Of a stretch of DNA of 64,000 nt, positions 36,795-38,233 are shown piece by piece. Made by a program: the position numbers and the translations under genes. Numbering within the stretch: position 1 is the stretch's first letter; each line of letters starts with the position of its first letter. Origin of the DNA: Mycobacterium sherrisii (GTDB taxonomy: Bacteria > Actinomycetota > Actinomycetes > Mycobacteriales > Mycobacteriaceae); NCBI RefSeq assembly GCF_002102355.1, contig NZ_LQPT01000119.1, positions 1-64,000 of the forward strand. The letters run 5' to 3'. The notes under the pieces are model-generated. The model was not told where the DNA came from. It saw only the letters and a list, made by a program, of their open reading frames with translations, and did not search any database.

Positions 36795-38068
36795 CGAGGT
36801 TGGACTCCGTCGAGAGGGCTGTTGCCGACATTGCGGCCGGAAAGGCCGTGGTCGTCATCGATGACGAGGAACGAGAGAACGAGGGCGATCTCATCTTCGC
36901 CGCCGAGAAGGCGACGCCGGAGATGGTGGCCTTCATGGTGCGCTACACCTCCGGCTACCTCTGCGTTCCCCTCGACGGCGCGATCTGCGACCGGCTCGGC
37001 CTGCTGCCCATGTACGCGCTCAACCAGGACAAGCACGGGACCGCTTACACGGTCACCGTGGACGCGCGGCTCGGCGTGGGCACCGGGATCTCGGCCTCCG
37101 ATCGCGCCACCACGATGCGGCTGTTGGCCGATCCGGCCAGCATCGCCACTGACTTCACCCGGCCCGGCCACGTGGTCCCGTTGCGCGCCAAAGACGGCGG
37201 GGTGCTGCGCCGCCCCGGTCACACCGAGGCCGCCGTCGACCTGGCCAGGATGGCCGGCCTGCAGCCCGCGGGCGCGATCTGCGAGATCGTCAGCCAAAAG
37301 GACGAGGGCGCGATGGCTCAGACCGACGAGCTGCGGGTGTTCGCCGACGAGCACGACCTCGCGTTGATCACCATCGCCGACATCATCGAATGGCGGCGCA
37401 AGCACGAAAAGCACATCGAGCGCATCGCCGAAGCGCGGATCCCGACCCGGCACGGCGAATTCCGGGCTATCGGCTACGCGAGCATTTACGAAGACGTCGA
37501 ACACGTCGCGCTGGTTCGCGGCGACATCGCCGGACCGAACGGCGAAGGTGACGACGTGCTGGTGCGGGTGCACTCCGAATGCCTGACCGGAGACGTGTTC
37601 GGCTCACGGCGATGCGATTGCGGACCGCAGCTCGATGCGGCAATGGCGATGGTCGCCCGCGAGGGTCGCGGCGTGGTGCTCTACATGCGCGGCCACGAGG
37701 GCCGCGGGATCGGCTTGATGCACAAGCTGCAGGCCTACCAGCTGCAAGATGCCGGCGCGGACACGGTGGATGCCAACCTCAAGCTCGGATTACCTGCCGA
37801 CGCAAGGGATTACGGGATCGGCGCCCAGATTCTGGTGGACCTGGGTGTGCGCTCGATGCGGCTGCTGACCAACAATCCCGCCAAGCGGGTGGGGTTGGAC
37901 GGCTACGGGCTGCACATCATCGAGCGCGTGTCCCTGCCGGTGCGCGCCAATGCGGAGAACATCCGTTACCTGATGACCAAGCGGGATAGGATGGGGCACG
38001 ATCTGGCCGGCCTGGATGATTTTCACGAATCTGTCCATTTGCCAGGCGAATTCGGTGGCGCTTTGTGA
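36791..38068 (+). CDS. ribA2: bifunctional DHBP synthase / GTP cyclohydrolase II
   Basis: 425-aa enzyme starting both branches of riboflavin synthesis. The N-terminal DHBP synthase (about 1-205) has [10 protein letters not shown] and uses ribulose 5-phosphate; the C-terminal GTP cyclohydrolase II (about 206-425) has the zinc cysteines in GSRRCDCG and [10 protein letters not shown]. The ATG at 36791 lies in the ATGA overlap with the small ORF; AAGG at 36779-36782 is a modest RBS. Its stop is followed by the 53-bp tandem repeat and ribH. Confidence 0.96.
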
Positions 38069-38157
38069 TTGTGTCGCGCCGCGACGATGCAGAACGGCAA
38101 GTGATGAGGAGAAGCGGCGCAAGATGTCGCGCCGCGACGATGCAGAACGACAAGTGA
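38065..38157 (+). CDS. micro-ORF 1 of the ribA2-ribH repeat
   Basis: GTG at 38065 overlaps the ribA2 stop (GTGA) and opens 30 codons through repeat copy 1 into copy 2. It shares the repeat-encoded core [16 protein letters not shown]. Expression is hypothetical. Confidence 0.3.
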
Positions 38158-38232
38158 TGAGGAGAAGCGGCGCAAGATGACGCGCCGCGACGATGCAGAA
38201 CGACAAGTGATGAGGAGACGCGGCGCAAGATG
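38074..38232 (+). repeat. three tandem 53-bp repeats, MIRU type
   Basis: Copies at 38074-38126, 38127-38179 and 38180-38232; copies 1 and 2 differ at one base, copy 3 at two from copy 2. Each contains GATGAGGAGA (a Shine-Dalgarno-like core) and ends AAGATG. Content, length and position between coupled genes match mycobacterial interspersed repetitive units, whose copy number varies between strains. The last ATG is the ribH start. Confidence 0.9.
38124..38180 (+). CDS. micro-ORF 2 of the repeat (18 aa)
   Basis: Begins at the ATG ending copy 1 ([18 protein letters not shown]) and stops in TGA that overlaps the ATG ending copy 2 (ATGA). An SD-like AGGAGA precedes it. Confidence 0.35.
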
Positions 38233-38233
38233 A
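38177..38233 (+). CDS. micro-ORF 3 of the repeat (18 aa)
   Basis: Begins at the ATG ending copy 2 ([18 protein letters not shown]) and stops in TGA that overlaps the ribH ATG (ATGA). It completes a coupled chain from the repeat to ribH. Confidence 0.35.

Follow-up and report, generated by a model that had tools for sequence, protein, structure and literature searches.

Mycobacterial DNA inserted between the riboflavin genes ribA2 and ribH mostly forms a relay of micro-ORFs. In 89 of 98 distinct inserts, the first micro-ORF starts on the stop codon of ribA2 by a 4-nt overlap, each further one likewise on the stop before it, and the final one stops on the ribH start (a strict relay). Comparison of these reading frames makes it probable that the relay is kept by selection so that ribosomes flow into ribH, with the MIRU as one of its materials. 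A direct 4-nt DTGA overlap (D = A, G or T) of the ribA2 stop and the ribH start, which is the usual mycobacterial layout, is probably the ancestral state and was taken as the empty site. DNA entering this junction, here MIRU-like units, would persist mainly where it forms micro-ORFs that each start on the prior stop in a DTGA, the last one stopping on the ribH start. Ribosomes ending ribA2 would then restart, translate the micro-ORFs and reach ribH, most likely by termination–reinitiation at each DTGA, and the SD-like AGGAG of each unit may aid the restart. Frame closure would matter in this process, the peptides themselves would not. Both the movement of ribosomes from link to link and the dependence of ribH output on the chain are inferred.

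The 53-nt array and its micro-ORF chain in Mycobacterium sherrisii

The window, a 64,000-nt stretch of M. sherrisii DNA, carries ribA2 and ribH in the same orientation, separated by 161 nt that consist almost entirely of three 53-nt direct copies (Table 1). Direct comparison and TRF both called this array, as given in a preliminary description of the sequence; copies 2 and 3 are 98% and 94% identical to copy 1. We take the copies to resemble the MIRU of M. tuberculosis, the tandem unit of which is 53 or 77 nt long. Among the best 80 of 568 named records, the closest ribH is that of M. tilburgii (96%), which points to the M. simiae group. Elsewhere in the window, TRF called an 11-nt tandem repeat, GGATCCCGCCA, in 3.6 copies (21887–21926).

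Table 1. Features of the ribA2–ribH region, with positions counted from the start of the window.
Feature	Position	Strand	Remarks
ribA2 (DHBP synthase / GTP cyclohydrolase II)	36791..38068	+	Pfam PF00926, PF00925; ORF; ends in GTGA
53-nt MIRU-like copy 1	38072..38124	+	end junction ATGT
53-nt MIRU-like copy 2	38125..38177	+	end junction ATGA
53-nt MIRU-like copy 3	38178..38230	+	end junction is ribH ATGA
Relay link 1	38065..38157	+	GTG on ribA2 stop; 30 codons
Relay link 2	38154..38180	+	GTG on link 1 stop (GTGA); 8 codons; shares frame with 18-codon ORF from ATG38124
First 18-codon micro-ORF of the preliminary description	38124..38180	+	SD-like site present; start without overlapping upstream stop
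Relay link 3	38177..38233	+	ATG on link 2 stop (ATGA); 18 codons; stops on ribH start (ATGA)
ribH (lumazine synthase)	38230..38709	+	159 codons; Pfam PF00885

A strict chain of 4-nt overlaps leads without a break from GTG38065 through GTG38154 and ATG38177 to the ribH ATG38230, by way of the RTGA sequences GTGA 38065–38068, GTGA 38154–38157, ATGA 38177–38180 and ATGA 38230–38233. The preliminary description had also proposed an unbroken chain, along a route that agrees only in part. Specifically, it was right about the GTG over the ribA2 stop, about the SD-like AGGAGA in every copy, and about the ORF of ATG38177, the stop of which (TGA38231–38233) overlaps the ribH start. It further held that every copy restores an ATGA. 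The junctions of copy 2 with copy 3 and of copy 3 with ribH do read ATGA; copy 1, however, ends in ATGT, so that the frame opened by GTG38065 passes the end of copy 1 and runs on to TGA38155–38157 inside copy 2. At this point GTGA 38154–38157 bypasses the ATGT junction and takes up the frame of the ORF from ATG38124 over the final 8 codons of that ORF, and the chain therefore stays unbroken. The 18-codon ORF from ATG38124, the first of this length in the preliminary description, exists and stops at TGA38178–38180, but no stop/start overlap reaches its start.

Predicted anti-SD pairing ahead of ATG38124, ATG38177 and ATG38230 amounts to −8.6 kcal/mol (median of 5074 ATG/GTG codons within ribA2 genes, −3.4), and GTG38154 is without an SD (−1.3 kcal/mol). 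The AGGAG lies 12 nt ahead of the ATG, a long spacing for a Shine–Dalgarno site.

Reading frames of ribA2–ribH inserts across the genus

Junctions were collected from 80 named records (the best 80 of 568) and from Mycobacterium genomes sampled at one per species; ribH was matched in 291 of these genomes, and 288 of them contributed one place each. Genomes G189, G211 and G274 stood outside this set, as did further ribH places of G113, G215, G023 and G064, two of which are M. szulgai and M. angelicum and are covered by named records. Because strains overlap between the two sources, junctions were made unique by sequence, giving 315 from 368 loci with none dropped. The last 20 loci added were all direct overlaps; the null runs, tree, pair test, and SD, MIRU-core and codon-position analyses used the 295 junctions before them. 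The 315 junctions comprise 196 direct 4-nt DTGA overlaps, 20 gaps of 3–6 nt and 99 inserts of 11–368 nt (98 distinct). More than one link occurs in 13 of the 89 strict relays: ten have two, the window and L070 three, and M. szulgai (L080) seven.

Closed chains were much rarer after randomization. In 500 runs each, one random indel per insert left a mean of 34 of 98 (maximum 46), two indels 32 (maximum 49), and shuffling plus an indel 26 (maximum 41). Equal-length shuffles, most of which keep the observed length, already gave a mean of 62 (maximum 71), and frame length therefore carries much of the signal. Among the 83 inserts read as one link at most, with length counted between the base preceding the ribA2 stop and the start of ribH, 79 were 2 mod 3, four were 1 mod 3 and none was 0 mod 3, so that in-frame extension of ribH is absent among single-link inserts. 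They are in phase at many lengths, e.g. 50, 56, 59, 65, 71, 74, 77, 80, 83, 86, 89 and 98 nt, and inserts of 53 and 77 nt are present in relatives.

These species are related and the counts therefore overstate independence, for which a pair test on a tree built from the coding sequences of ribA2 and ribH is a partial correction. It yielded 41 independent tip pairs of unlike insert length, with both chains intact in 32. The length difference was a multiple of three in 25 pairs (22 with both intact); of the other 16, ten had both chains intact, rescued by a differing number of links. By Fitch parsimony, exact length changed 97 times on the tree versus 17 changes between intact and broken (a gap of 3–6 nt counting as intact only where it forms a link).

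The nine failures are of several kinds. Three chains overlap ribH by 11 nt (L037, L046 and L105), two inserts follow a TAG stop (L258 and L310), one is off by 1 nt (L084), that of M. lepraemurium (L053) stops 17 nt short, and those of M. palustre (L092) and L247, the latter a 35-nt array, break at the last step. Behind the 99 inserts, ribH is full length in the 62 cases where the stretch covers the gene and open to the end of the stretch in the other 37. M. szulgai (L080/L067) and M. angelicum (L081/L085) each have two ribA2–ribH loci, one a direct overlap and one a relay (of seven and two links respectively). One stop counted in the matches had suggested that the relay-bearing ribH of these species is broken; this was ruled out, both running for 158 codons to their own stop.

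SD-like pairing before ribH is common in all groups, and coupling and SD-led starts may therefore act together. At −4.5 kcal/mol or better, such a site precedes ribH in 94% of the 89 relay inserts and in 87% of 176 direct overlaps, so that ribH might start alone. This frequency favours the main rival explanation, namely that translation of the insert keeps Rho from stopping transcription ahead of ribH, which uses its own SD. The three exceptions with an 11-nt overlap fit it as well, since they still cover the insert. Mere cover, however, needs no start on the prior stop, link 2 of the window starts without an SD, and in the available text of PMC11260477 Rho did not explain the loss of expression in the ppe2 case. 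As the ribH start itself supplies the final TGA, and with it the exact last overlap, comparative data separate cover from coupling only in part. We consider translation cover rather unlikely, and favour the selected relay.

MIRU sequence, peptide and RNA as possible alternative causes

A MIRU insert might keep phase by itself. According to the available text of PMC12548453, MIRUs insert at start codons with coupling at −4 nt and with little effect on the gene; in a reading without later selection, insertion at a DTGA, a length of 53 or 77 nt and ATGA ends would suffice. The window copies are MIRU-like, and because 53 is 2 mod 3 the unit arrives in phase, so that part of the pattern needs no selection to account for it. 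A MIRU core motif, allowing up to three mismatches, served to divide the inserts, a crude cut that matched 32 of 1960 shuffles by chance. Relays were found in 35 of 40 inserts with the core, but also in 54 of 58 without it, and the latter, when clustered at 75% likeness, fall into 40 groups whose relay fraction averages 0.93. Decayed MIRUs or MIRU insertions may be among the 58; the stretch CCCGCTTGCGGGGG occurs in eight of them and in 15 MIRU-like inserts. No MIRU core was found in the inserts of 11–35 nt or in the 26–27-nt array of L267, and unrelated inserts of 11–41 nt obey the ribA2–ribH frame rule too. The many other single-link lengths that stay in phase likewise argue against a passive MIRU trait.

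The genome of M. sherrisii, 5.56 Mb in 128 contigs, has 12 MIRU-like matches at E ≤ 1e-3, the window array included. At the 10 other sites (L010 and L012 counted as one), at least two of which (L004 and L007) are not between two co-oriented genes, the strict relay is intact in just three (L003, L006 and L008), which again speaks against the passive trait; we regard it as improbable. At L008 (C101:127387–127549) the MIRU-like units are part of an open frame of 425 codons, in its 3′ portion, where they would give a repetitive C-terminal tail, and a further 18-codon link then leads into the next open frame. The MIRU-like copies of L002 (C28:30776–30907) end in ATGG, not ATGA, and form no relay; the next gene is thiolase-like by eye.

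The translational relay proposed in the preliminary description is thus strongly supported by closed chains in 89 of 98 inserts, against randomized means of 26–62, but its credit to the MIRU was too narrow, given the relays in 54 of 58 inserts that lack the core. Its expectation that copies can be gained or lost with the chain intact holds for other species with one, two, six or no repeat units and chains of up to seven links (M. szulgai), but not for the three-copy array of M. palustre.

Selection might instead act on a functional small peptide, as 18-codon MIRU-type links of several species give similar, VSRAGDDAERSDAEERRK-like peptides. We looked for peptide constraint by codon position in 12 such links and found no sign of it, the differences being spread evenly over positions 1, 2 and 3 (88/85/100). 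Relative to M. tilburgii, M. montefiorense and M. genavense, the window units carry indels of −2, −1, +2 and +1 nt; as these sum to zero the frame closes, though the latter half of the peptide comes from a different frame. Since the window link differs in its second half and non-MIRU links are of unrelated sequence, we give a peptide function hardly any credence.

Only slightly less remote is a role of the three copies outside translation, as a structured RNA or a promoter element. The array region does fold better than its shuffles (z −3.2, with one in 200 of them folding equally well), which we attribute to pairing between GC-rich tandem copies, and promoter activity is reported in the available literature for the senX3-regX3 intergenic region. 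On the other hand, no sigma-70-like promoter was found in 36600–38400 and no terminator in the array on the + strand, and one terminator-like site on the other strand is no commoner than in shuffles. That unrelated inserts of 11–41 nt keep the frame rule is a further point against RNA structure or promoter function as the cause, which makes this very improbable.

Other operon junctions and known coupling systems

Four other junctions were picked for a MIRU-like insert in the M. sherrisii genome and followed in 120 loci, 30 per gene with M. sherrisii in each 30 (38, 40, 40 and 41 genomes matched the four genes), under a looser start rule that accepts any in-frame start within 36 nt. These loci comprise 67 direct overlaps, 11 gaps of 3–4 nt, 22 relays and 18 broken cases, while two were left unscored. 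A C precedes the stop in 11 of the 18 broken loci, and an overlapping start is therefore impossible there; where the upstream context was DTGA, 22 of 29 were relays. The frame rule is thus weaker at these junctions than at ribA2–ribH, despite the looser start rule. The junction of ribH with its next gene seldom takes inserts (144 of 149 unique junctions were direct overlaps, one a relay and four others, with 181 loci giving no next-gene hit in the stretch), and so has little power as a comparison. Control specific to riboflavin is unsupported, since relays occur at the four other operon junctions too.

Intact tandem-array relays at these other junctions have periods of 17 (L387), 23 (L466), 53 (L365) and 65 nt (L438), and tandem periods in intact relays taken together are 17, 23, 26, 53, 56 and 65 nt, all 2 mod 3. 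We tentatively put forward, as a possibility that is still doubtful, a rule for operons across mycobacteria by which DNA inserted or duplicated between DTGA-joined genes would survive mainly as a micro-ORF chain, so that 2 mod 3 arrays would recur from unrelated sequence and copy number would set the ratio of the two proteins.

In other species, L414 and L418 have an insert with inverted GAGCAGAC/GTCTGCTC ends between two genes, before a nuoG-like gene; it is also a 33-codon relay. Before a proB-like gene, L424 and L421 carry MIRU-like inserts in frame with the downstream gene, which would extend its N-terminus; this phase has no example among the single-link inserts before ribH.

Coupling by MIRUs is reportedly to be traced to Supply 1997. 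MIRU coupling at −4 nt is already in print in the available text of PMC12548453, and the window resembles this system, a short mycobacterial repeat whose ORF joins the following gene at −4 nt, in its 53-nt tandem unit between co-oriented genes. It differs in that one of its copy junctions reads ATGT, which an internal GTGA bypasses, and in that the relay at ribA2–ribH is common to inserts that lack MIRU sequence. Shell 2015 (PMC4633059) described coupled small ORFs in mycobacteria, where, in the available text, a short ORF is joined to the next gene by RTGA and linkage can outlast sequence, being sometimes kept while the peptide diverges. The ribA2–ribH linkage, too, is kept more than the peptide, with 89 of 98 inserts linked and no codon-position bias in 12 links. 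In contrast to the enrichment test of that study, as far as its available text goes, which concerned small ORFs opening leaderless transcripts, the ribA2–ribH micro-ORFs bridge two operon genes in chains of up to seven links.

Termination–reinitiation at an AUGA overlap was shown, in the available text of PMC11260477, by reporter tests in M. smegmatis of a uORF from M. tuberculosis. There, uPPE2 hands ribosomes to PPE2 via the overlap, as we propose for ribA2–ribH; the uPPE2 case, however, is a single uORF under a riboswitch, with no repeat, chain or genus-wide frame test in that text. Titles and abstract openings in the literature, with subscription papers outside this scope, held nothing on ribA2–ribH relays or chained coupling micro-ORFs, and the text of PMC9094748 has no mention of coupling, MIRU or ribH. 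Coupling by MIRUs and by small ORFs is therefore already published; a genus-wide relay of up to seven links from unrelated DNA looks new, as do its parts, the chain within an operon, its recurrence in unrelated DNA and the statistics of reading frames.

Where stop and start overlap by 4 nt, coupling tends to be deduced just from their position, and here natural inserts test it repeatedly. That DNA of varied origin and length at a core vitamin junction is kept mostly where ribosomes could pass is evidence of selection on translational continuity, independent of the peptide. Mycobacterial intergenic repeats should accordingly be read with caution, neither as untranslated spacers nor as small-protein genes, and the natural variants with zero to seven links are a ready set in which to measure the efficiency of ribosome hand-over.
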